In this document: piece by piece, positions 9,548 to 51,123 of the stretch | Layout: every line of letters begins with the position of its first letter | How positions within the stretch are numbered: position 1 is the first letter of the stretch | From: Streptococcus oralis | GTDB taxonomy: Bacteria > Bacillota > Bacilli > Lactobacillales > Streptococcaceae | NCBI RefSeq assembly: GCF_001578945.1 | Contig: NZ_KQ969550.1 | Location: forward strand, 272,301-323,529 | DNA: 51,229 nucleotides | Reading direction: 5' to 3' | Translations under genes and position numbers: made by a program | The notes under the pieces: generated by a model | What the model saw: the letters and a program-made list of their open reading frames with translations, nothing else | Database searches by the model: none | Told to the model about the DNA's origin: nothing

Positions 9548-12500
9548 CTAGTCTTTCTTTGTTTTTGCTACAAAGAGAGCAGATAGGGCTAGGCTAACAC
9601 CTGCTAGGAAGAGGGCTGTGTCAGATTGGCTCTCACCTGTTGCTGGCAAGCTTTGTTCAGCTGTTTCTGGTCTAGCACTTTCTTGTTTATAATCTGGAGT
9701 TTTACCCTGATCAGAAGCTAAAGAGCTAAGTTTAAACTCAGGTTTTTCAACTGTCGGAGCTGGTTGGTCACCTACTGTTGAGATTGGGCCTGTGTACTCT
9801 GGTACTTCATGCACTGCTGCTTCAGCTGCATTGACACCACCTGTGAATTCAGGAATCTCCAGAACTGGTGGTTGCTCTTCACCCTTGCTTGATTGAACCG
9901 ATTCTTCTGTTAATTCTTGATAAAAGCTAGCCAATTCATAAAACTCAGCCTTGCCACCTTCCCAGACTAATTTGACATCTAGAAGAGTGCCGCCATTTCG
10001 GATAGCGAAGGTTTGGAGACTTGATGTAATGGCACCGAGGTCTTGCCAGCTGTCTTGCCCATCCTTAAGTGTTCTCGCAAGAACACGTGCTTGCGCTCCT
10101 TCAGGAAGACTGGAAACGAGACGAAGGTGGTTAGCTTTGGTTGGTTCAGACAAATGATACACCAATTCGCCCTTGTCTTTTTCAGACTTGTAGCTGGTCA
10201 AGACTTTGCCGTCTACAAGATTATTATAAAGGTTGCCTTGGCTTTCTCCACTACTTCCTTCTACTGTTGGATCATTGATTGGTTTGACAAACTCACCATC
10301 GTTGATGACCAATTCTGTAAAGCCTACAAAACGGGCATCATAGTCTGCCGTATAGAGTACACGGAGATAGTTAGCTTTGACTGGTGTCGTCAATTCACCT
10401 TCGATGTAGCGATTTCCTGGCATCTTAGAATCATGTGTCCAACCATCTGTCAATGAATCATCGTGTGTGCTATTGGCCACACCATCTCCTACTGTAACGA
10501 CATCTGTCCAAGTTTTACCGTCTTGGCTGACTTGGATCTTACCATCACGAAGGTAGTTTTGAGTTCCGTCTTGGATGTAGGCTCTAATCTTCTTGATGGT
10601 ACGTTCGCTACCAAGTTTCAAGGTTACATGGCCATCTTTATGGGCATAGTCTGAAAACTCAACGAAGTTGTTGTAAACACCGTCAAACAATTGATCTAGG
10701 TTGTTCAGCTTACGAACATCATTGCTTCCGTATGTTGGATGAATGCCCATAGTTGTAGATTCTAGTTTGGTTGGTTGCACTTCTTTGGTTGTCACAAGGA
10801 GAGAGGTGGCTGTCACAGCTTGTTCCTGATCTGTTTTATTGACCAGACGAACATAACGTACCAAGTGGGTTGCGACAGCTCTGTCTGTCAACTGGCTAGC
10901 TGGCGTCCATTCTTGCGCATTTGCAGAGTATTCTAGGCTAAGAGCAGGGTTGGCCTGACCTTTGAGCTGGATGCTCTTGATTTGATGGATACGGTCAAGC
11001 TTCATTCCTAGGTAGCTATGAGCAGGGAGTTTGGTTCCAGCTGGAATTTGAAGCTCGTAACTGCCCAAGCTATCCACTACTGGCGTTTCCTTCAAGGATT
11101 CCACGTTGGTGTCTGTTAACTCACTATTTCCAGAGCGTGTCTCAACAGAGAAGTCTTGGATACGCCACCAGAGGTCAAGAGCCTTGGTATTGCGGACTCG
11201 GATGTAACGAGCATTGATAGCTCTGGTCACTTCCTTAGTTTGTTCTCCTGATAGGCGATCCAACTCTTGCCATGAAGTTCCATCTGTAGAGTACTCAAGT
11301 ACACCTGCAGCAAGCTTATCACCCGTTCCTTGGCGGAGTCGTACTTTAGTGACTGACTTGACTTCACCGAGGTCAAGTTGTGCCCAGGCATCTACTGGAG
11401 TCGTATTGCTACCGTCAGCATTTGCCATCATGGCTTCTGTATTGTCCTTGCCATCAGTGATTTGACGGGCTGAGGTATTTAGTTTGTAAACTAAGTTTGA
11501 GCTTAGACTGACTGTCGTTGCTTGTTGGCTACGAGCTTTTTCAACTGGCCGGTTGACTGCAATTTCCTGAACTGCAAACCAAGTGTTCTCGCGGTCTGCT
11601 GTCGCAATCATGCGAACTGCCTTGGCCTTGATAGTAAGATTTTCAAACTTAAGAATGGACTCATTTCCGATATAGCTTGGTTCTTTCAAGGTTACCCAGT
11701 TATCATTTTCATCTAGATACTGCACTTCTGCCTTACTAAAAGTATCATTTGGATTAGCCTGAGTTCCCATAGCAAAGGTCAATGTTTGAATCGCTACTGG
11801 TTTGTTGAACTTCATACCAATATAATCACCTGTCTTGATGCTATTTGGTGATTTAATAATCGCATGAGTTGCCAAATCGCCATCCGTTACTTCTGCTAAA
11901 CCACCTTCTACACCTGTTCGATTGGTAATAAAGGTACTGATGATTTGGTCTGGATGCAAGATTTTTTGAACTTCAGACGCTAGAACTTCTTTCAAGGATA
12001 GGATAAATGGACGAATATGTTGAACACCCAATTCAGCTTTTTCCATATGGTCTACATAATGGAAGGTGTGAGTTTGAGACTGTTCGTACAATTTCAAACC
12101 TTTATAGTAGCTATCCCAAAGTTTGGCTGCATCGTTTGTAGCCATGGCTTCAGTTCCTGTAAGGAAGGCATCTAGGGCATTCATTTGGTCGATTGCATTA
12201 TCCAACCAATAGTGGATTTGGGCAACCATTTTTTTATCGCCTGATGCTTTATAGAGTTCGGCTGCTTCTTTAATCTTGGCAAATTCTGCACGCAAGGCTG
12301 TACGTTCAGCAGTCACATCCTGACCAGCTTTGAGCTTGGTCATGAAGTCTGTTAATTTTGGAGCCAAGTCTACAGATTCTTCTAGTTTGACGACACGATT
12401 ATCCATGTTTTGGTTGATCATGTGCTTACCAAGTTCACGGAAGGCTTCTGATACCTTACTATCTTCAAAATGACCATTTTCTACAAAATTGAAGGCAATA

Positions 12501-15500
12501 TCATTGATTTTCTTAGCTTCTTCTTCTGATTTCCACTGTTTCCATGAGTATTGAGCTCCTGCAAAGAGGGCAATCTTAGATGGTTCAGACTGTTGCATTG
12601 GGTTCAACATGATACCAGATAGCAAGCTTGGATCTACATTTGGATGAAGGAATTTCTCACCACCACCTAGAATCAAGTGTTGTTTAGAGTTATCTGTTAC
12701 TGGCCAGTTAATCCAAAGTGAAACTGGGCGATAGGCCTTGCCACCTGCGGATAGATTGTTCTTGAGAGTTGAAAGGAAGCTTTCAGAGACTTCACCCCAA
12801 ATCTTACCACCCGTCAAGGTCATGGATGTTGAACTTGGGAGATTTTCATTGAGGGATTTCAACTCATCCTCACGTCCATTACCCCAATACTGGCCAGGAA
12901 CAAAGATCATTTCTTTGCGAAGACCGCTGTAAGTTCCCTGCATTTCAGTCAACCACTTGGTCATATCTTGCATCAAGCGGTTGTAACTATTGTAGCCACC
13001 GACTGGGCTTGGAGCATCATCTGCTAGGATACCAAATTCGCGGACACCCACTTTCATCAACTGGGTAAATTTGGCCTTGATGGTTGCCAAATCTTCTTGG
13101 TAATGCGCTTCATTGCCAAAGCGGATACGGTTGTTCATGAATGGATGGATAGTCCAGACATAGCGGGTTTTACTTTGATTTCCGACACGAGCAAGTTCAC
13201 GGATTTCAGCTAGTTTTTCTTCTGGATAGAGTTCACGCCATTTCTTGTTGTGGTATGGATCATCTTTTGGTGCAAAGAAGTATTGGTTCAATTTCAAATC
13301 GCCACCATAACGCATGAGTTCTGCACGATCGGCATTAGACCATGGATTTCCATAGTAACCTTCGATGAAACCACGGTTCTTGAGTTCTGCGTAATCTTCT
13401 ACTGTCACATTGCGAAGAACTGGTACTTGGCTTTCCTTGAGCATGTGTTTCAAGGTTGTCAAACCATAGAAAACTGCATCAGTGTCTTTTCCGACGATGG
13501 AAATCGAATTATCCTTGATGCTCAAGACATAGGCGTCAATCTTGTCAAAGAGACCTGCTGAAACATTGGACAAGTTTTGTTCTGCTTGTGAGTCTTGTCC
13601 ATGCACTCCAAGATAGATATTGGTTGCGCCAGCGATTGCTGCCTTACCAGTTGTATAAGATACTTGATTATCCTGCAAGACACTCTTCAAGCGATTGCGA
13701 GTATAGATATCGAGTTGATCGCCCATAACCAGATTGACTTGCTTACGAAGAGCTGTGACACCTTCTCCATAAGTCACTTTTTGTGGAGTTGGGAAGACCT
13801 TGTACTCTTTCTTGAGATAGTCTGCGCTCTTGCTGGCTGCTGCAACGCTGTCTTCGCTAGCTGGTTTACTTGCAGTGAATTGATCTGCCAATTCAACTGT
13901 TCCATCACCGGTTTGGTCTACTTTTGGTTTTTCAGGTGTAGTTGGTTTTTCTGGTTGACTTGGTGCAGGCGTTTCTTGCTCTTCTTTGACAGGTTTCAAT
14001 AGATGAACTTCAGCTGCACTTGCAAAGCCACCAACGCCTTCCAATACTTTCAACTCAATCTTATTGGAATCTACCGCCACAAAGTTGACTGTTTTTTCCT
14101 GAGCGTTGTTGTCCCAGTTTCCTTCTGAAACCTTAACCATTTGACCATCTTTTTGTGCGTAGATTTCGTAGCGCGTCACGACACCATTTCCACCACCTGG
14201 ACGTGGGAGATAAGTCAAGCCATTGACTTTTTCAGCTTCTTTCAAGGTCATAGTAAGGGTGTATGGCGCAGTGTCACCAGTCCATTTAGTATGCCAGAAG
14301 GTATTTGGATCATTGTCAAAGGCCTTTTCAACAGCGCCTTCAGTAGCGTTTCCTGGCAATTCTTGGCTACTTGCAGTAGCAGTAATCTTATCATTTGAAA
14401 TCAAACGAGGATTTACAAATGGTTTGTCTGACAACTCTGCACTATGCAAGATTCCTTTGAAGCCACCGATGCTTTCAAGCGGCAATACCAAGCTATTGTG
14501 GGCAAAGCGAGGGTGGGCTGGATTTGCGATACGTTCAATCTTTTCACCATCCACATAGACTTCAGTTGACTGTGGTTTGGTCACGATGGAGATTTGATAC
14601 CGTTTGTTCTTTTCAAGTTTTTTATTGAATTGGATATGGAACTGTTCAAATTGATAAGCGAGGTAGCCATCTTTATCAGCTAGATAGATACGGTTGTCCC
14701 CACTTGTTGAGAAGGTTTGTTCCCCGTCTCCAGTGACAGTTACATCAAACTTCAAGACGTGACTTGGACCAACATCACCAGCCAAGCCTTCGATACTGCT
14801 ATCTTTCTCAAAAGCCAATCCTTGCTCGCTTGTCTTCACCTTCTTGCTTGCATAGTTCTTCACTGTTTCAGGATTGATGGTAAACAAGTCGCTTTGATCA
14901 ATCTCTTTATCAGGATTTGACTGTGGCGCATAAGGACTCGTTGGCAGGGTGCGTTCTGCAAAGGTCGCAGCTGCACGGTCAGATCCCCAAGTGCGCTCTG
15001 CAGTGGTTTGCATGCTCTTGAAGAAGCGTTTAAAGATATCATAAGAGGTCAAACCTGTCTCATGAAGGTCAATATTGTCATTCCAAACTGCGTGACCACC
15101 ACCAAGGATACTTGGATGAGAAGCTGGTAGAAGTGGACCTCCACCTGTTCTAAAATCATTCGGTGTCCAGCTATTGTACTGACGTTCGTAGTTAGCATAG
15201 TCCCCGTAAGCTGCTTGACTATTGCTTCCACTTGGCACACTATAGGTCGGCACATCTGTGATGTTGATAATCTTAGCTCCCTGAGCAATGGCTTCATTTG
15301 GTCGTTGCCATCCGATGCTCCAGATATCAACTTCTACTCCGTTCCAATCAACAGGGGTGTTCCCTCGTTTCGCACTGAGTGAGCCCCAGATACGAGGGGT
15401 ATAGCCTTTTCCTTTAATATATTTGATAAGGTCATTGACATAGCGACGATAACTTTCTCTGCTGCCATAGTATTCATCCGTTCCGATATGAACAGTGGAT

Positions 15501-17557
15501 ACCCCATGAAGTGGTGCATCTGGACCATCGAGGAGTTTGTCATAGACGGATTTGACAAAAGCCAGCGTTTCATCGTATTTTTTATCTAGGTCCAGCATAG
15601 CTACGCGCTCGACATTGTGCTTGCCTGCATAATCGCTCAAACTACCTTGATACATGAGGTCTGGACGGACTTTGACAAATGATAGAGCGTGACCTGGTGT
15701 GTCAATTTCTGGTACTAGGTTGATATGCAATTCTTTGGCAAGTTTAATCAGATTTTGCATTTCTTCCTTGGTATAATGCTCATCTGATGTAAGTTTTTGA
15801 CCATTCTTACCGACAATGTCTGTTTCCACCCGGAAACCTGTCTTGGCATGTTCAAGAACATACTTGAGTTCTTCTTCTGGTGTTAAGCTCTTACCTGCCA
15901 AGTGTTCCTTAAGGAAGATATAGTTATCATTAAGGTGCAACTGCAAGTCGTTCATCTTGTAGTAAGCCATGTTGAGCATGATGTCTACAAGAGTGTCATA
16001 AGGGATAAATTTACGACCTGTATCTAGCATAAAGCCACGGTGGCTGAAACTTGGGAAATCGCGAATTTCACCATTTTGTAGGTCTGTTTCTCCCATTTGA
16101 AGAAGGGTACGAGTGGCGTAGAAGGCTCCTGTGTTTGTGGCAGCTTCGATGGTAATCACATCATCTTGGATAGTGATACCGTACCCTTCTTTACCATAAC
16201 CCTTGTTTTCAACTTTTTTAAATTCGATTCGTTTTTGAGCTTGCTTGTCACCCGTTGCTAGTTCCAATCCACGGCTGGCAAGGTCTGACTGGTAGAAAGT
16301 TGCAGCCTGATCAAAGCCCGAATCTCCTGTCGCAAGGACTGTATCTGAAGTGATAGAAGATTGGCCTTCTTTCCCATACCATTGTTGAACAGCTGGTGCT
16401 ACTTTTGGCTTCACACCCACACCTTCGTCCTGATGTAGCCCCTTGATGACTACTTCAAACTCTTTTGTAAAGGTATGACTGTCTCTGATTTGTTGGACCA
16501 TGACCTTGACACGTTGATCTGTCAGAGGTTTATGGATGTGATTTTGAAGGTCAATTACACCTTGTTTATTGCTTCCGATGAGACTGACTTTTCCTGGTAA
16601 AGTTGGTAAGACAAGAGACTGTCCGTCTTCTGCTACTGTTAGTTCGGTTACTTGGCGGATATCCGTTACCTTACTATGGTCCGGAACGTTTGAATAAGCT
16701 CGAATTTCTTGGATACCAACGTTTCTCCAGTTCATTGTACCAGCTTGGTAGTCATTGATCTCTAATTTGAGGTACTTAGCTTGAATACTTTCAGCTAGGT
16801 CAACTTTCTCATCTAAAACAGGTTCTCCAGTCTTGGTATGAGCGAGTTTCCATTGTTTTTCTCCATTAGCCCCCACATCTTCTTGACCTGCGTAATAGAG
16901 ACTCCAAGATTTGATATTGGGATCATTTTGCCCATTACGAAGACGACGATCCCAGTCAATTTCTACATGCTTGATGAGGGTAGTTTTTGGAAGAGTTAAT
17001 TCAAAAGTTGGTTTTGGTACATCTTTGTCCGTAGCCCAACGAGTATTGTCATCTCCATCGATAGCCTTATCTGCAGTAAAGTTGGTCCCAGTCTCATGGT
17101 TGCTCGCCTGAGCAGTAGCACCCTCTAAGTGATTGATATCTGGACGTTCTTCTACTTCTTGATTAGTTGGTTTAATAGCAGGAGTATTTGTTTCTGCTGA
17201 TTGCACTTCTTCCTTAGGAATTTCAGCTGTTTTTGGAACTGAAGGAGTCGTTGTTGATGTTGTTTCTCCTGTCTCTTCAGGTTTTGTTCCTTCTTCGGTT
17301 GCCTGGCTCCCCTCTTGATTTCCTTCTGTTGCAGCTTCTGCATCCGCCTTTTCAAGCGCAGCGGCTAAATCATCTGGTAACTTATCCAGAGCTTGAACAT
17401 GAGTGATACTTCCCTCTGTCTCTGAAGGCGCTGCTGTTTCTGCTGCCTGAACCATATTGACTCCAAAGATACTAGCACCAATCATAACTGAGGCTACACC
17501 AATTGCAAATTTGCGGATACTATAATGGCAGCGTTTCTCAAAAAAGTGTTTGTCCAT
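9548..17557 (-). CDS. LPXTG-anchored GH20-GH84 beta-N-acetylhexosaminidase
   Basis: A 2669-residue wall-anchored protein. In order: YSIRK signal peptide (1-38); acidic linker; discoidin/CBM32-like domain (about 145-290); GH20 support and catalytic domains (about 390-880) with the catalytic pair D694-E695 in HIGTDEYYG; a LamG-like segment (about 890-1060); a second CBM32-like domain (about 1065-1190); GH84 support and catalytic domains (about 1240-1700) with D1513-D1514 in ILADDAPSP and the GFIEGYYGNPW motif; several further discoidin-like domains (about 1830-2480); repeat tail; LPATG at 2637. GH20 and GH84 both use substrate-assisted catalysis to remove terminal beta-HexNAc, so mucin and N-glycan trimming is expected. 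Specificity is not visible. Pneumococcus lacks a gene here as far as I recall. Confidence 0.93.
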   Translation of the reverse strand: MDKHFFEKRCHYSIRKFAIGVASVMIGASIFGVNMVQAAETAAPSETEGSITHVQALDKLPDDLAAALEKADAEAATEGNQEGSQATEEGTKPEETGETTSTTTPSVPKTAEIPKEEVQSAETNTPAIKPTNQEVEERPDINHLEGATAQASNHETGTNFTADKAIDGDDNTRWATDKDVPKPTFELTLPKTTLIKHVEIDWDRRLRNGQNDPNIKSWSLYYAGQEDVGANGEKQWKLAHTKTGEPVLDEKVDLAESIQAKYLKLEINDYQAGTMNWRNVGIQEIRAYSNVPDHSKVTDIRQVTELTVAEDGQSLVLPTLPGKVSLIGSNKQGVIDLQNHIHKPLTDQRVKVMVQQIRDSHTFTKEFEVVIKGLHQDEGVGVKPKVAPAVQQWYGKEGQSSITSDTVLATGDSGFDQAATFYQSDLASRGLELATGDKQAQKRIEFKKVENKGYGKEGYGITIQDDVITIEAATNTGAFYATRTLLQMGETDLQNGEIRDFPSFSHRGFMLDTGRKFIPYDTLVDIMLNMAYYKMNDLQLHLNDNYIFLKEHLAGKSLTPEEELKYVLEHAKTGFRVETDIVGKNGQKLTSDEHYTKEEMQNLIKLAKELHINLVPEIDTPGHALSFVKVRPDLMYQGSLSDYAGKHNVERVAMLDLDKKYDETLAFVKSVYDKLLDGPDAPLHGVSTVHIGTDEYYGSRESYRRYVNDLIKYIKGKGYTPRIWGSLSAKRGNTPVDWNGVEVDIWSIGWQRPNEAIAQGAKIINITDVPTYSVPSGSNSQAAYGDYANYERQYNSWTPNDFRTGGGPLLPASHPSILGGGHAVWNDNIDLHETGLTSYDIFKRFFKSMQTTAERTWGSDRAAATFAERTLPTSPYAPQSNPDKEIDQSDLFTINPETVKNYASKKVKTSEQGLAFEKDSSIEGLAGDVGPSHVLKFDVTVTGDGEQTFSTSGDNRIYLADKDGYLAYQFEQFHIQFNKKLEKNKRYQISIVTKPQSTEVYVDGEKIERIANPAHPRFAHNSLVLPLESIGGFKGILHSAELSDKPFVNPRLISNDKITATASSQELPGNATEGAVEKAFDNDPNTFWHTKWTGDTAPYTLTMTLKEAEKVNGLTYLPRPGGGNGVVTRYEIYAQKDGQMVKVSEGNWDNNAQEKTVNFVAVDSNKIELKVLEGVGGFASAAEVHLLKPVKEEQETPAPSQPEKPTTPEKPKVDQTGDGTVELADQFTASKPASEDSVAAASKSADYLKKEYKVFPTPQKVTYGEGVTALRKQVNLVMGDQLDIYTRNRLKSVLQDNQVSYTTGKAAIAGATNIYLGVHGQDSQAEQNLSNVSAGLFDKIDAYVLSIKDNSISIVGKDTDAVFYGLTTLKHMLKESQVPVLRNVTVEDYAELKNRGFIEGYYGNPWSNADRAELMRYGGDLKLNQYFFAPKDDPYHNKKWRELYPEEKLAEIRELARVGNQSKTRYVWTIHPFMNNRIRFGNEAHYQEDLATIKAKFTQLMKVGVREFGILADDAPSPVGGYNSYNRLMQDMTKWLTEMQGTYSGLRKEMIFVPGQYWGNGREDELKSLNENLPSSTSMTLTGGKIWGEVSESFLSTLKNNLSAGGKAYRPVSLWINWPVTDNSKQHLILGGGEKFLHPNVDPSLLSGIMLNPMQQSEPSKIALFAGAQYSWKQWKSEEEAKKINDIAFNFVENGHFEDSKVSEAFRELGKHMINQNMDNRVVKLEESVDLAPKLTDFMTKLKAGQDVTAERTALRAEFAKIKEAAELYKASGDKKMVAQIHYWLDNAIDQMNALDAFLTGTEAMATNDAAKLWDSYYKGLKLYEQSQTHTFHYVDHMEKAELGVQHIRPFILSLKEVLASEVQKILHPDQIISTFITNRTGVEGGLAEVTDGDLATHAIIKSPNSIKTGDYIGMKFNKPVAIQTLTFAMGTQANPNDTFSKAEVQYLDENDNWVTLKEPSYIGNESILKFENLTIKAKAVRMIATADRENTWFAVQEIAVNRPVEKARSQQATTVSLSSNLVYKLNTSARQITDGKDNTEAMMANADGSNTTPVDAWAQLDLGEVKSVTKVRLRQGTGDKLAAGVLEYSTDGTSWQELDRLSGEQTKEVTRAINARYIRVRNTKALDLWWRIQDFSVETRSGNSELTDTNVESLKETPVVDSLGSYELQIPAGTKLPAHSYLGMKLDRIHQIKSIQLKGQANPALSLEYSANAQEWTPASQLTDRAVATHLVRYVRLVNKTDQEQAVTATSLLVTTKEVQPTKLESTTMGIHPTYGSNDVRKLNNLDQLFDGVYNNFVEFSDYAHKDGHVTLKLGSERTIKKIRAYIQDGTQNYLRDGKIQVSQDGKTWTDVVTVGDGVANSTHDDSLTDGWTHDSKMPGNRYIEGELTTPVKANYLRVLYTADYDARFVGFTELVINDGEFVKPINDPTVEGSSGESQGNLYNNLVDGKVLTSYKSEKDKGELVYHLSEPTKANHLRLVSSLPEGAQARVLARTLKDGQDSWQDLGAITSSLQTFAIRNGGTLLDVKLVWEGGKAEFYELASFYQELTEESVQSSKGEEQPPVLEIPEFTGGVNAAEAAVHEVPEYTGPISTVGDQPAPTVEKPEFKLSSLASDQGKTPDYKQESARPETAEQSLPATGESQSDTALFLAGVSLALSALFVAKTKKD
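9730..9890 (-). repeat. C-terminal repeat cassette shared with the GH101 gene
   Basis: The region encodes [11 protein letters not shown]-type residues, then [16 protein letters not shown], then [11 protein letters not shown]. Nearly the same cassette ends the neighbouring GH101 gene (17890-18125), with clearly similar DNA as well. Such wall-spanning repeats place the enzyme domains beyond the wall and offer sites for recombination between the two genes. Confidence 0.75.
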
Positions 17558-17728: not shown

Positions 17729-24025
<6,297 letters not shown>

Positions 24026-45503: not shown

Positions 45504-46181
45504 TTAGATATGATTTTCAAATTCTTTTTGACTCTGCTCAATCGTTTTTTTCGTTCTTCTTCCCACTTAGCCTTAGCTTCGTCAAATCGTTTTCTTGGTA
45601 ACAGGATCTTTCTGCAATCTCATGTACTTATAATTATTTCCGTCCCCCTTGATACCAACTAAGGAGTAGGCACGTGTAAACGAAGTTACTTTGGTTACAG
45701 AGGCTGTACCACTATTTGACATAGCAGACAGGATTAGAGAATTGTCAATCATCCACGCTTGAGCTTTTTCCTTATTAAAGTAAGCGTCTTGGGCATCCGC
45801 CAAGTTGATTCCTGACCATTCTGTTCCATAGTTCACAAGCTTAGAAGCCGTTACCTCTCCAAAGCTCTTGTCTCCTACTTGTACAAAAGTAAGGAGGGAG
45901 GTATTACAAGGTTTTTGCTGGCTGCTTCCTCACCATTTGATTGAGCTGAGTAGGTTGTGCGATCAAGGGCAAAGTTAATCGCCTGACGGAAATTTTTATT
46001 TAAAATCGCTGTTTGAGTTGATAGCTTTTGCTCATCCGTTGTTTTAGCGGTATGATTATAGGTTTTGCGGTTAACGTTGACGAGAAAGTACTTATATCTG
46101 TATCAAACTGTCCAAAAGCTGACAGTAACCCTCCTGCAACTAAGGCAAGAACCGCTCCGATAAGTTTTTTCTTAATTTCAT
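45504..46181 (-). pseudogene. Shredded Ali-type oligopeptide-binding lipoprotein gene
   Basis: Pieces of an AliB/AliD-type protein read in order on the minus strand. An ATG at 46181 opens a lipoprotein-like signal (KKLIGAVLALVAGGLLSA) that is frameshifted in its A-run, and the lipobox Cys is Phe (LSAFG). A large deletion follows, then VNVNRKTYNHTAKTTDEQ through NFRQAINFALDRTTYSAQ, a frameshift near 45900, then VQVGDKSFGE to NYGTEWSGINLADAQDAYF. A second deletion joins FNKEKA directly to QAWMIDN. Further frameshifts near 45590 and 45540 precede a C-terminus equivalent to EQSQKEFENHI and stop near 45504. Compared with the intact paralogue at the right end, roughly 250 and 190 codons are missing. 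No functional product is expected. Confidence 0.85.
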
Positions 46182-46230: not shown

Positions 46231-46409
46231 ATTGCTTTAAAAAGTAGAGTTTCCCGCTTTCTATCGAGAAACGATTAATCTAAACAAATAATGCAGGGCG
46301 TTAAAATGAACCTAAACACTTAAGTGCATGGAAAATAAAAAACAACCATTTTCTGTACAAACTTTATCTATATCGATTTAAGCCATCAACATCACCGCCA
46401 CGGACGGGC

Positions 46410-46596
46410 ATTCGATCGTCAAAATTGCTATGAATCCTATGAATATTCCACCAACAAAGACAATCTTCTGTCTCTAACAGCCATTCTTTTTAAAGAACGA
46501 AAGTATCCTTGATTAATGAATTTGACCTTAAAATACGACAATTTTTTCAGCTACGGCATTATTATACAGACAACTAGTTTGTTTTCGAAGAGCTTT
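46410..46596 (-). pseudogene. IS3-family transposase remnant (end of OrfB)
   Basis: The minus strand encodes, in more than one frame, ALRKQTSCLYNNAVAEK (equivalent to the SRKG-C-DNAVAE segment of IS3-type DDE transposases, including the third catalytic Glu), then a piece like KVKFINQGYFRSL, then LETEDCLCWWNIHRIHSNFD (equivalent to the YVNWFN-RIHS-L segment). Stops and frameshifts break it, and the rest of the element and its ends are not recognisable. The flanking stretches 46231-46409 and 46597-46780 hold nothing I can identify. Confidence 0.65.
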
Positions 46597-46781
46597 TCGT
46601 ACCAATAGGAAGATAGAACCCGCGGCATTCATCCTCTTTTCCAAATCGTTCTTAAGAAAAAATGAATTATCCACATCCCTCAATTGCCTTGATTAGAGGC
46701 AACTAGCAATCTGATAAAATCCATCAAATGCAAGTTTCGTAACTTTGGTAATTTAAGAAAAGAACCATTATCGCTTTGAAT

Positions 46782-46813
46782 AAAAATGGAGAAGACAGTA
46801 CCGCCTTCTCCAT
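46782..46813 (-). terminator. Terminator of the CAP-like protein gene
   Basis: On the minus strand ATGGAGAAG and CTTCTCCAT form a 9-bp stem with a 10-nt loop, followed by TTTTTATT, about 55 nt after the stop codon. Confidence 0.8.
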
Positions 46814-46866
46814 ATACTAGCCTTCTCATCAATCCACGACAGGTGACACAGAGCTAGAAATTCGAA

Positions 46867-48555
46867 TTACTTATAATTATAAGCCCAGTAATAATCTCCA
46901 TTACCACTAACTACTGCCGCCACGGCCCCTTCTGTCGCATTTGGATCTAAAAGTAGTTCTCTCAAACCACTATTTGCCCACTTCTTGACAACAGCGTCCG
47001 CATCTTGGTCATGACGAGCAACAAAGCCTGAACTATCATATTGGCGAGAAATTTGATTTGCTTTCGGCAGGACTTGATTTTGATAAATCTCATCTGACCA
47101 AGTCAATTCTTTCAAACCTTGTTCCTTACGAATTTCATTGATCTCAGCAAATGCTTCCTTAGCCTTTTCCATATAGTAATAATTCGTATCATCCGTCGCA
47201 GCAACGCGGAAGACAAACTTCACATAACCAAATTCTACATCACGATAACTTTCTCCGTCTACTCCGCTCTTGAGATTGGCAACCAAAACATAATCTCTAG
47301 CCCAAGGATCTGTTTTAGTTTTCTCAAAGATTTCTTCATCTTCAATCTCCCAAGTAACCTTTGCATCCCAACCTGCGTTATCTACAAATTTCGGATTTAG
47401 TTTTTCGATCACATAGTTTTTAAATTCCTCAACATTTTGGAATGGAAGAGCTTGCCCTGCCTCAGCAGTTGCGACTAGATTAGTCGAATACAGTTTCACG
47501 CTAGAATCCTGATCACTATATCTATACTCATCATCCGCAGGATCCGTGTGCAAGTTTGGATCCAGTGCCGGATCAGTAGGGTTGGTCATCCCATACAGTT
47601 TCCATACATTCCCCATCCATTTCCAGTAGGCTGTATAACCTGTAACTGCATCATTAGAGTCAACATAGTAATAATGGTTTGTGCCATCAAAGGCATAGTG
47701 TGTATCGTTCTCCAGAACCTTATCACCTGGCTTTCCTGGTGGAAAGGCCAATTTTGGTTTACTTCCATCTGGAGCCCACAACAAGTGCTCCAAACCCGCT
47801 GCTGGCTTTTCAACATACGGAGGAATCTGATTTTCACTCGGTTCATCCGTCGTGGTTAAACCTGGAGTCTCTGGGACAGATGGATTGGTTGGATTATCTG
47901 GCTTTGGATCTTCAGTTGGATTATCTGGTTTTGGATCTTCAGTTGGTTGGTCTGGTTTTGGTGCAAAAGGATTAAACTCTCCCTCAGCACCATTGAATGG
48001 GGGATTTTCTGGAAGCTCCACTGTACCCGAATCTTCTTTTTCCTCTTCTTTTGGATTATCCTCAGATTTCTTAACAAACACCCACTGACCATCTTGGTAA
48101 TAATAGTAGTCCCCGTTTTCTAACACATAGTAATGGTAACCATTCTCATAGCGGTAGTGGCTATCATTTGTTAAGTTATTAGCTGAAGAATTGTTGTCAT
48201 TATTATTTGTCAACGGTTTCCATTCACCATCACGGTAAATACGGTAACTACCGTCACTCATACGGTAGTAGTAGTGACCATTCCAGTAAAAATAGCGACC
48301 ATTATTGGGTTGTCGGTAATTGTATCTATTCCAATAATTATAGTTGCGATTCCAATAGTTATAGCCATAGTCCCAATAGTCATAATCCCAATAGTCATAA
48401 TCCCAATAGTCATAGTCCCAATCATCGAAATCGTAGTCCCAGTTATGACGGAAATCCCAACGATGATCTGCATGAACCGTTGGTGCTACAGAAGCTGAAG
48501 CCGCAATTGCCGATGCCAGAACCGCTCCCGCCAAAAGACCATATTTTCTATTCAT
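46867..48555 (-). CDS. Secreted Tyr/Trp-rich protein with repeats and a C-terminal CAP-like domain
   Basis: A 562-residue exported protein I do not recognise as a named family. In order: signal peptide (cleavage likely near VHADH, residue 30); an extremely aromatic, acidic tandem repeat of WDYDY units and NYW/YNYR variants (about 34-80); two or three degenerate 28-residue units of the type YWNGHYYYRMSDGSYRIYRDGEW (about 85-165, another near 290); an acidic Pro-rich linker with EDPKPDNPT repeats (about 185-240); a mixed domain; and a C-terminal segment (about 460-562) with the CAP/SCP look (AFAEINEIRKEQGLKELTWSDEIYQN, then FVARHDQD). No LPXTG, choline-binding or lipobox signal is seen, so it is free or held non-covalently. 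GGAGG precedes the ATG. Confidence 0.8.
   Translation of the reverse strand: MNRKYGLLAGAVLASAIAASASVAPTVHADHRWDFRHNWDYDFDDWDYDYWDYDYWDYDYWDYGYNYWNRNYNYWNRYNYRQPNNGRYFYWNGHYYYRMSDGSYRIYRDGEWKPLTNNNDNNSSANNLTNDSHYRYENGYHYYVLENGDYYYYQDGQWVFVKKSEDNPKEEEKEDSGTVELPENPPFNGAEGEFNPFAPKPDQPTEDPKPDNPTEDPKPDNPTNPSVPETPGLTTTDEPSENQIPPYVEKPAAGLEHLLWAPDGSKPKLAFPPGKPGDKVLENDTHYAFDGTNHYYYVDSNDAVTGYTAYWKWMGNVWKLYGMTNPTDPALDPNLHTDPADDEYRYSDQDSSVKLYSTNLVATAEAGQALPFQNVEEFKNYVIEKLNPKFVDNAGWDAKVTWEIEDEEIFEKTKTDPWARDYVLVANLKSGVDGESYRDVEFGYVKFVFRVAATDDTNYYYMEKAKEAFAEINEIRKEQGLKELTWSDEIYQNQVLPKANQISRQYDSSGFVARHDQDADAVVKKWANSGLRELLLDPNATEGAVAAVVSGNGDYYWAYNYK
48361..48425 (-). repeat. 15-bp tandem repeat encoding WDYDY units
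   Basis: About four nearly identical 15-bp copies (ATAGTCATAATCCCA on the plus strand) lie in tandem inside the secreted-protein gene. Slippage here would add or remove five residues and keep the frame. Confidence 0.85.
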
Positions 48556-48595
48556 TTTAAATTAAACCTCCAAAAAGAACCACTAGTCGTAATGT

Positions 48596-48629
48596 TCGGA
48601 AAAACTTTGTGCACTATTCGTTTTTCGGA
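48596..48629. promoter_or_regulatory. Dyad in the leader of the CAP-like protein gene
   Basis: TCGGAAAAAC and GTTTTTCGGA form 10-bp arms with one mismatch and a 14-nt spacer, 41-74 nt upstream of the start codon. It may be an RNA hairpin in the leader or a protein-binding site. Confidence 0.35.
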
Positions 48630-48667
48630 CTAAAAGTAAAGAATATATTTTATAAAATATAATTTAG

Positions 48668-48698
48668 ACGTAATGAATATTTTTAATATTTATTACGT
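48668..48698. promoter_or_regulatory. 31-bp near-perfect palindrome upstream of the CAP-like protein gene
   Basis: Arms ACGTAATGAATATT and AATATTTATTACGT (13 of 14 pair) flank TTT. It lies 113-143 nt upstream of the start codon. A possible -35 (TTGAAC, minus strand, 48702-48697) touches its edge, so an operator role is plausible. The remaining gap from 48700 to 49100 is AT-rich, includes a short stem (CTGATGT with ACATCAG, 48772-48789), and shows no gene I can support. Confidence 0.4.
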
Positions 48699-49100
48699 TC
48701 AATAACAATTGTAGCACTTTCACATTTTAAAATCAACAAAATAACATCATTACTATTTTTATATAACAAAACTGATGTTTTAACATCAGAACAAGTATTT
48801 TTTGTTTCAACGCTCAAACTATATGGTATTAAACACTTGCCTAAAAAATATTTTTAACATGTATAAATATACTAAAAATAATTTGTTATATAAATATTAA
48901 AGTTCGTATTCTCCTTCGGATTCCCGTGATTAGGTTGCATTACAACTATTGTCGATCTGACAGTCCTCTTTATCATGCAAATCATAGCCTAAAAAGAACC
49001 CCCCTTCTAATAATATATCGCACCCCCACTATAGCGGTTTTGTTCCTTTTTAGTGTTTGCACAACTCTGATATTACGCGTTTCATCGACTACTATAGTTA

Positions 49101-49144
49101 ACAAAGAAACAAAAGGAAGCACAGATTTTCTGCAACTTCCTTTT
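49101..49144 (-). terminator. Terminator of the right-hand ali-type gene
   Basis: On the minus strand AAAAGGAAG, with an inner GCAGA/TCTGT pairing, closes with CTTCCTTTT and is followed by GTTTCTTTG, about 12 nt after the stop codon. Confidence 0.85.
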
Positions 49145-49155
49145 CTTTTTATAGA

Positions 49156-51123
49156 TTATTTGATGTGTTTTTCTAGCTCTTTTTGGTATTTGGCATTCGT
49201 TTCGATTCTTTCTTTCTGCCATTTCTTGAAAGCTTCTTCGTATTCTTTGGTGGTCGCGACATCATTTTGCAACTCCAGGCCTTTGAAAACGAATGGATCC
49301 CCCTTGATTCCGACTTGAGAGTACGCTTTTGTGAATGGCACTGTACGGCTAACAGTTGGAGAACCACCTGAAGAGGCAACTGGGATTAAGAGTGAGCTAT
49401 CAGATACCCAAGCTTGAGCTTTAGCGTATTTCTCATAACGTTTATTGAGATCGCTTGTTTCACTCGCCGCATCATCCAAGAGTTTCTTGTATTCGTCCAG
49501 TCCAACTTGAGCCATCACTTCTGGATCTTTTCCTCGGGTAATTCCCAAGTGCTTGAGAGCAGAACCTGTCTTGGCATCTAGTATATTGAGATAGGTGGCT
49601 GGATCCTGATAGTCTGGTCCCCAACCAGTTCCATTCAAGTCATAGTCTTTTTGAGATGGTACTTTGGCTTGAGAAGTGATACTCATTTTTTCATCATCCG
49701 TCATTTGAAGAACATCAATAATGACATTCTCTGTACCAAGTGTTGATTCGATAGATTGTTTGAGTGAGTTGGTTTGCTGAACGGCAATCACATCTGTCTG
49801 TTCAACCGGGATGTCCAAACGAATTGGGAATGTCACGCCTTTAGCTTGCAATTCTGTCTTAGCTTTTGCAAAGGCCGCCTTAGCTTTTTCAGGACTGTAA
49901 ATCGTATCCTTACCATCTGTAAGGGCTACATCTTTCCATTGTTCCCCATATGAAACGAGCTCTGCCTGTGCCAACTCTCCAAAGGTCTTTTCACCCACTT
50001 GAACGTAGTCATGAGGCACTAGGCTGTTACGGATAATCTTGTCCGCACCTTCTTCGCCATTCAGCTGGGCAGTGTAAGAGTGACGGTCAAGGGCAAAGTT
50101 CAGCGCCTGACGGAAGTTCTTGTTGAGAAGAGCTTCTTTCGTTGAAGTTTTTTGAGCCTCGTCCGTTTTGGCTGTTTTATTGTAAGACTGGCGGTTTACG
50201 TTCACAGTGAGGTAGTAGCTTGTCGCTTCTTGTGGACTATAGACAATCTTATCGCCATACTCTTTTTTAGTTGACTCAAAGTTTGAGCTTGTTGGGAAGA
50301 GACGGGCTGTGGTATATGCACCTTGTGTAAAGCTACGAATCAAAGATTCTTGGTCTGATCCATCGTAGAAAGTTAGTTTAATATTGTCAATCTTGACATT
50401 GTCCTTATCCCAGTAGTTTGGATTCTTTTCATATTCAATGACTGATTTTGAAGTCAATGATTTCAAGAAATAAGGACCATTATATAGGATACCTGATGGG
50501 GTTGGTGCACCATAGTCGCTCCCTTTCGAATTCAAAAATTCTTCATTAACTGGAAGCATGGTTGCAGTTGTGACCTTAGAATTCCAGAAACTTTCTGGCT
50601 TGTTGAGAGTGTATTCTACCGTGTAGTCATCAACAGCTTTAATTCCTACAGTAGAGAAGTCATTGCTTTCTCCACTGACATAGGCAGCCAATCCTTTGAT
50701 AGAATCCTGAATCAAAGAAAGTCCGTCTGACTTCCCATCAGCAGCATGCTTAAGCCCAGTAACAAAGTCTTGAGCCTTAACTTCTGCATACTCTTCTCCC
50801 TCAGAAGTATACCATTTCACACCCTTACGAAGTTTGTAGGTATAGGTCAAACCATCTTTAGAGACGGACCAGTCTTCTGCAAGTGATGGAATTAAATTTC
50901 CATACTTATCATTTTCTAAGAGACCATCCACAACGTTCGCTATAACGTCAGATGTTGAACTTTTGCTCGTCACACTATAGTCCAAAGACGATGGATCCAT
51001 GGCATAAACATAAGAAAATGTCTTGGGAGCCTCTGCATTCTTTTCGTTTTTTCCACAAGCCGTTAACAGGAGAGCAGCACTCAAGACCGCTCCTGCTCCT
51101 AAGAGCCACTTTTTCGATTTCAT
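49156..51123 (-). CDS. Ali/Ami-type oligopeptide-binding lipoprotein (second copy)
   Basis: A 655-residue SBP family 5 lipoprotein. The signal peptide MKSKKWLLGAGAVLSAALLLTAC carries lipobox LTAC, followed by a folded solute-binding domain with KDGLTYTYKLRKGVKWYTSEGEEYAEV and a C-terminal helix (ETNAKYQKELEKHIK). It is clearly paralogous to AliA at the other end of the capsule locus but distinct, and resembles AliB, AliD or AmiA. No permease or ATPase gene is nearby, so it would feed a distant Ami transporter and may sense particular peptides. The start chosen is the ATG at 51123, with AAGGAG 8 nt upstream; a longer reading to 51156 has no lipoprotein signal at its front. Own promoter and terminator. 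Confidence 0.92.
   Translation of the reverse strand: MKSKKWLLGAGAVLSAALLLTACGKNEKNAEAPKTFSYVYAMDPSSLDYSVTSKSSTSDVIANVVDGLLENDKYGNLIPSLAEDWSVSKDGLTYTYKLRKGVKWYTSEGEEYAEVKAQDFVTGLKHAADGKSDGLSLIQDSIKGLAAYVSGESNDFSTVGIKAVDDYTVEYTLNKPESFWNSKVTTATMLPVNEEFLNSKGSDYGAPTPSGILYNGPYFLKSLTSKSVIEYEKNPNYWDKDNVKIDNIKLTFYDGSDQESLIRSFTQGAYTTARLFPTSSNFESTKKEYGDKIVYSPQEATSYYLTVNVNRQSYNKTAKTDEAQKTSTKEALLNKNFRQALNFALDRHSYTAQLNGEEGADKIIRNSLVPHDYVQVGEKTFGELAQAELVSYGEQWKDVALTDGKDTIYSPEKAKAAFAKAKTELQAKGVTFPIRLDIPVEQTDVIAVQQTNSLKQSIESTLGTENVIIDVLQMTDDEKMSITSQAKVPSQKDYDLNGTGWGPDYQDPATYLNILDAKTGSALKHLGITRGKDPEVMAQVGLDEYKKLLDDAASETSDLNKRYEKYAKAQAWVSDSSLLIPVASSGGSPTVSRTVPFTKAYSQVGIKGDPFVFKGLELQNDVATTKEYEEAFKKWQKERIETNAKYQKELEKHIK

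Follow-up and report, generated by a model that had tools for sequence, protein, structure and literature searches.

An aromatic repeat array on a secreted CAP-domain protein of Streptococcus oralis: a possible non-sortase surface adhesin or matrix protein

What might a secreted streptococcal protein do that begins with tandem WDYDY repeats and ends in a degenerate CAP domain? The gene that raises this question is found in a stretch of 51,229 nucleotides of Streptococcus oralis DNA (hereafter the window). There, an open reading frame on the minus strand (46867-48555, taken from the ORF list and its translation) encodes a secreted protein of 562 amino acids and is preceded by a GGAGG Shine-Dalgarno sequence, recognized by eye; the extent of the whole gene (46867..48555) agrees with reading frame, translation, and relatives. 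We tentatively favor the answer that the product is a non-sortase surface adhesin or biofilm-matrix protein of oral commensal streptococci, in which the aromatic array possibly serves as a variable sticky domain. If true, this would provide a role for a gene that has been noted in S. oralis cps loci.

The gene is mentioned, for the cps locus of S. oralis subsp. dentisani, in a 2016 paper by Skov Sorensen et al. The passages of that paper on the gene (PMC5111408) report it from the strains F0407 and SK95 as a 'cross-wall-targeting SCP domain' gene, describe it as absent from strain 7747 despite the same cps type, and refer to homologues in many commensals; they mention the gene only, saying nothing of its function or transfer and describing neither modules nor a WDYDY array. 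The F0407 gene (L035) is the same gene as that of the window, being syntenic and 78-85% identical, and differs in that the window copy has 22 additional array residues and adjoins a remnant of aliD. A literature search confined largely to openly accessible papers found nothing on the gene's function, and the gene was encountered in PMC5111408 only. The possibility, raised in the initial annotation, that this is a well-characterized family thus holds insofar as the gene and its homologues have been in print since 2016 as an SCP-domain protein (passages of PMC5111408), but a characterization was not found. The CAP/SCP protein kind is already known, and its combination with an aromatic array and YY modules was not found described.

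At the N-terminus, the translation displays a Sec-type signal. The signal peptide comprises approximately residues 1-30 (48466..48555, minus strand) and resembles the TIGR03726 cross-wall-targeting signal profile, with the cleavage site placed by eye; the window protein scores 17 bits, under the cutoff of 20.85, and the orthologue in F0407 scores 22 bits, over it. As a first step of the proposed mechanism, the protein would be exported via Sec, as the signal type in the profile suggests, and probably at the septum. In the translation, a lipobox cysteine is absent (there are zero cysteines across all 562 residues), and so is a C-terminal sortase signal consisting of LPXTG, hydrophobic stretch, and charged tail, the C-terminus reading ...YYWAYNYK. 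The absence of LPXTG bears out the initial annotation, in which no standard wall anchor had been recognized.

The signal peptide is followed by an aromatic low-complexity array (residues 31-82; 48310..48465, minus strand), which is defined by its composition, with 14 Tyr, 12 Asp, and 8 Trp making up 65% of its 52 residues. WDYD[YF]/WDYGY units cover residues 39-65 (48361..48441, minus strand) and include three perfect WDYDY copies at residues 46-60 as well as the near copies WDYDF (residues 39-43) and WDYGY (residues 61-65). The array had been described as perfect 5-residue repeats rich in Trp, Tyr, and Asp, which is accurate for the composition, while perfection extends to three units only. 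NYWNR also occurs twice in the protein. On the DNA level, TRF detects a 15-bp tandem array at 48361-48422 (4.1 copies, 93% matches), and the codons for residues 51-55 have the same sequence as those for residues 56-60. The periodicity is also evident from the residue count, as 20 of 47 positions are identical at a lag of five residues, whereas shuffling these residues gives 7.7 on average and none of 20,000 shuffles came up to 20. As had been anticipated for the 15-bp repeats, array length differs between close relatives: the syntenic orthologue of F0407 has an array shorter by 66 bp, an in-frame difference of 22 residues. The length probably changed by slippage.

Aromatic residues in the array are most commonly separated by a gap of 2 (14 of 23 gaps). 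In the proposed mechanism, the array would be the variable sticky part of the protein, whose alternating aromatic and polar residues could make many weak contacts to glycans, pellicle, and its own copies. The composition and the alternating aromatics, together with the Asn/Gly/aromatic-rich arrays of most relatives, would also suit a self-assembling, amyloid- or condensate-like domain with aromatic stickers and polar spacers, which Asp would keep soluble at neutral pH and which would assemble in acid plaque. A different secreted protein of S. mutans, Smu_63c, forms amyloid upon acid treatment according to passages of PMC9431626, which adds to the appeal of such a reading. The window array, however, has a net charge of about -6 and is unstructured in the structure model. 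Passages of PMC10647432 moreover report that S. sanguinis amyloid falls upon loss of sortase A, whereas a sortase signal is absent from the window protein; no homologue of Smu_63c was found in S. sanguinis by that study. We judge self-assembly to be unlikely. Smu_63c resembles the window protein in being secreted (passages of PMC7083922 and PMC9431626), a likeness by description only; it was set aside as a homologue, having been compared through literature descriptions alone.

Relatives were matched in 43 of 284 Streptococcus genomes, two of which (G236 and G310) hold fragments with stops, and in 15 of the 395 genomes of an order-wide draw, one of them beyond Streptococcus (G375). Named carriers include S. 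sanguinis, S. gordonii, S. parasanguinis, S. australis, S. rubneri, S. intermedius, S. oralis, and S. pseudopneumoniae; no relatives were present in the plasmids, phages, and viral contigs searched. A second, shorter paralogue is located directly downstream in S. gordonii DD07 and S. sanguinis 2908 (477 and 484 amino acids) and also in S. sanguinis SK49, where it is split into two frames (paralogue-carrying loci L034/L055, L113, and L041/L114). The common architecture is seen in 11 aligned family members and, from a summary only, also in 18 members of a larger alignment. When duplicates, proteins of less than 450 amino acids, and X-containing sequences were removed from the 61 matches, 37 distinct proteins remained, among which the C-terminus has exactly 303 residues in 31, 305 in two, and 307 in three, with one unparsed. 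In 10 S. sanguinis-type proteins, the array occurs in seven lengths (96-110), the linker in three, and the C-terminus in one. These rows are unaffected by parsing errors, which made array lengths too long for L045, L051, and L114 (ORF start upstream of the true signal), slightly too long for L046, L106, and L115 for the same reason, and too long for L031 and L110 (module missed); L109 has an array length of 1 (start called inside the gene), and L099 is unparsed.

The drift of array and linker in length beside a fixed C-terminus would also be expected if the YY modules and the C-terminus did all the wall or glycan binding and the array were a flexible, exposed, and antigenically drifting spacer, in which slippage alone might maintain the aromatic bias. 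Yet aromatics stay at 26-42% of the array in 35 of the 37 proteins (those measurable) despite strong sequence differences between lineages, a constancy not required of a neutral spacer. In our estimate, such a spacer has a low probability similar to that of self-assembly. The chemistry of the array differs by lineage. Asn, Gly, and Tyr or aromatics in general abound in nearly all other relatives, with 2-7% Asp/Glu in the 33 other measured proteins versus 20-21% in the window and F0407 only. The window array is reminiscent of acidic salivary peptides. An Asp/Tyr/Trp array of this kind might bind Ca2+ as well as the mineral of teeth or the salivary pellicle, having shifted in this lineage from the neutral Asn/Gly type; the restriction of acidic arrays to the window and F0407 argues for this, the shortness of the F0407 array argues against it, and we regard it as quite improbable. 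In the tentatively preferred sticky-array reading, this observed variation means that the array changes in length, probably by slippage, and differs in chemistry by lineage.

Behind the array, two YY modules were delimited by alignment on the minus strand, module 1 at residues 87-115 (48211..48297), for which a model of low confidence shows four short strands, and module 2 at residues 132-162 (48070..48162), likewise modeled with low confidence. A diverged third module lies at about residues 284-323 (47587..47706, minus strand) and was located by alignment and by a profile built with that copy. The 28-residue YY-rich repeats of the initial annotation are thus found as two modules, with a third copy that has diverged. 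The acidic Pro linker that had been placed after the YY repeats is indeed seen in the translation at residues 163-252 (47800..48069, minus strand); it contains a 27-bp tandem repeat (TRF, 47888-47961) and varies in length among relatives.

The YY profile, which was built from 15 modules, matched three places in the window gene as well as relatives, such copies having been part of the profile, and it matched seven of 198 genomes. Its short matches in G402 and G340, near E 0.001, were discarded as probably due to chance. Against the PDB, the best match is the choline-binding protein 3hia (E 1.4e-4, biased, with only E 0.0099 for the best stretch), and hhalign related a YY module to the choline-binding repeats of its own genome with a probability of 56%. 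The PDB match is a weak hint at the carbohydrate or wall-polymer binding, or self-assembly, that had been suggested initially. The YY modules share an aromatic NG-x-x-YY beta-hairpin pattern with the PF01473 choline-/glucan-binding repeats but differ from them in their unit of approximately 30 residues, in the lack of a Pfam match, and in that 13 columns only could be aligned. At E up to 1, Pfam matches the window protein in the CAP domain only, with no PF01473 in the YY modules, and none of the 37 PF01473 repeats detected in the window's own genome at E up to 0.01 falls in the 46867-48555 gene. Block by block, the pLDDT of the YY modules is ~43-65. Choline-binding proteins, some of them annotated with CAP, are described in passages of PMC6722419 and PMC12211801; none of them was equated with the window protein.

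Judged from the sequence pattern, it is plausible that the YY modules are functionally like choline-binding repeats. In a second step, they would accordingly, as aromatic beta-hairpins, retain the protein non-covalently in the wall or matrix, much as choline- or glucan-binding repeats do. S. sanguinis and other carriers are not known to have choline on their teichoic acid, which counts against retention of the choline type. With regard to glucan, GH70 glucan synthases are encoded in 24 of 43 carriers versus 29 of 241 others, a comparison confounded by relatedness, and in 12 of 31 carriers versus 29 of 241 when 12 S. sanguinis-type genomes are left out. No GH70 was seen in the window's genome (87% complete) or that of F0407 (G256), so self-made glucan is not the general ligand, and glucan was rejected in this capacity.

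The C-terminal unit was modeled with AF2 (residues 345-562) using 21 sequences of the family, of which two are partial, with a mean pLDDT of 80.9. Residues 354-454 (47194..47496, minus strand) may adopt an Ig/cadherin-like fold in the model, where the fold match has a Z of ~4.5 only. Residues 456-562 (46870..47190, minus strand) form a CAP domain according to Pfam, model fold, and alignment. PF00188 matches residues 470-561 (E 1.1e-6, 30 bits versus a cutoff of 21.1), and the CAP part of the model matches 4ifa with a Z of 11.6 (rmsd 3.3, 104 aligned), BB0689 (4d53) with 11.5, and GAPR-1 (1smb) and SAV1118 (4h0a) with 10.5, the four folds being covered over 101-108 residues. Foldseek with a whole-protein model placed CAP proteins on top, with weak rows for S-layer proteins and dystroglycan, and PDB sequence searches with the whole protein and a C-terminal profile gave nothing useful. 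A Pfam scan of seven relatives left four without a Pfam match at E up to 0.1.

While the Pfam score and the fold over ~100 residues liken this domain to the CAP/SCP superfamily, it differs from it in being shortened, in lacking H..GEN..GHxxN, and in sharing its chain with an aromatic array and YY modules. When aligned with MAFFT, the window protein and five streptococcal relatives have other residues in place of the H, GEN, and GHxxN motifs seen in the canonical L161 (GLRELL instead of GHYENM); L157 also has a His at the GH site, which the non-Streptococcus relative L099 retains. The alignment is thin, as four of 20 canonical loci entered it and only L161 spans the whole domain. The missing His/Glu motifs carry the conserved, functional cavity residues of the CAP tetrad. 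A degenerate CAP-like end, as proposed initially, is thus found in an above-cutoff PF00188 domain with a CAP fold in the model and without His/Glu motifs, and alignment and model suggest that its site is apparently non-canonical and non-enzymatic. As the third step, the Ig/cadherin-like segment and the CAP domain would act together as a fixed structural or binding head from which the canonical CAP site has been lost. In the window's genome (87% complete), the 46867-48555 protein is the only CAP match; since a CAP domain occurs in 78 of 118 genomes searched across the order, it is by itself unremarkable. Between the window and F0407, dN/dS of the C-terminus is 0.058 (NG86, dS 0.93, several other pairs being saturated), and purifying selection on this part is well supported by sequence comparison.

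The window gene sits beside the cps locus, between aliC and a remnant of aliD (~45510-46180, minus strand) in which a deletion and frame changes are visible by eye; in F0407, it sits between aliC and an intact aliD (naming according to PMC5111408). This position might speak for a role in capsule assembly or retention. In other species groups, however, the gene is carried at different chromosomal places (neighbors named by eye), with no cps genes seen by eye among up to two flanking ORFs on each side. Considering also that strain 7747 shares the cps type but lacks the gene, as mentioned above, we hold a capsule role to be very improbable.

The different locations point to movement of the gene. 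In the S. oralis-type genome G032, it has a HAD-hydrolase gene on one side and a uspA-like gene on the other; at this site, the window's genome has 25 bp and G032 a 2,594-bp insert holding a promoter-like site, the gene, and a downstream region. G032 and G007 match the end of aliC by the window gene; the ~350 bp immediately preceding the gene are matched by neither of them, though by F0407 (G256). The G032 C-terminus is 95% identical to an S. sanguinis copy, and the neighboring HAD protein of G032 is 73% identical to that of S. sanguinis G009 versus 96% to that of the window's genome. In the gene tree, the window and F0407 are set apart (support 99/100), and five of six S. oralis-type copies fall into a clade with S. 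sanguinis (98/98) in which some forks are unsettled, with DD15 (L103) outside. From these comparisons, the G032 copy looks to have been acquired from the S. sanguinis lineage, and movement between species as a single-gene unit is well supported for this one case, while the 25-bp site may alternatively reflect loss in the window lineage. In a last step of the proposed mechanism, the gene would travel as one unit, bringing along its promoter and terminator, from species to species and from one chromosomal site to another.

The gene, matched in about one-seventh of the Streptococcus genomes searched, appears mobile between species and encodes an aromatic array that evolves fast together with an apparently dead CAP domain. 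Should the array prove to adhere or assemble, repeat number and Asp versus Asn would make it a simple system for studying how low-complexity sequence sets the properties of a commensal biofilm. A bolder and rather improbable version is that of a laterally mobile sticker protein with array-driven, pH-dependent assembly in plaque, where chemistry (Asn/Gly to Asp) and length would shift fast, the wall modules and a catalytically dead CAP head would be fixed, and strains would build chemically different matrices.

Consensus matches place an extended -10-like site (TGCTACAAT, hexamers 48736-48708) before a 5' leader (48556..48707, minus strand) that includes a GTGCAC palindrome (48609-48614). A terminator-like hairpin with a T run lies past the stop codon (46786..46813, minus strand), one of two such sites in 46400-49200 versus 1.6 expected from shuffles. 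Rfam at gathering gave no leader match in six loci (one unrelated tRNA), with only sub-cutoff noise in the window, and RNAalifold gave no consensus on the family leaders, so no RNA family is claimed for them. VicR/WalR, CiaR, LiaR, cre, and CodY boxes, searched as consensus strings, were not found upstream of 15 family genes. A -10-like site was found for 18 of 19 genes, and their long leaders of 152-278 nt accompany the gene to unrelated loci (the set comprises 48556-48736 of the window and the upstream regions of L030, L036, L041, L043, L046, L048, L108, and others). Many family leaders have a GTGCAC-type palindrome ~50-75 nt ahead of the ATG, and 12 display an AGGCCT-like loop on stems of species-specific sequence, with folding z from -0.6 to -5.0; a second AGGCCT-loop place in S. 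parasanguinis has a folding z of 0.0.

Elsewhere in the window, two YSIRK proteins are encoded on the minus strand. The first (17729-24019) is a surface protein that combines a trypsin-like peptidase domain (residues 164-321) with a GH101 endo-alpha-N-acetylgalactosaminidase, and the second (9548-17557; 2669 amino acids) carries GH20, NAGidase (PF07555), and several F5/8 domains on a single chain.
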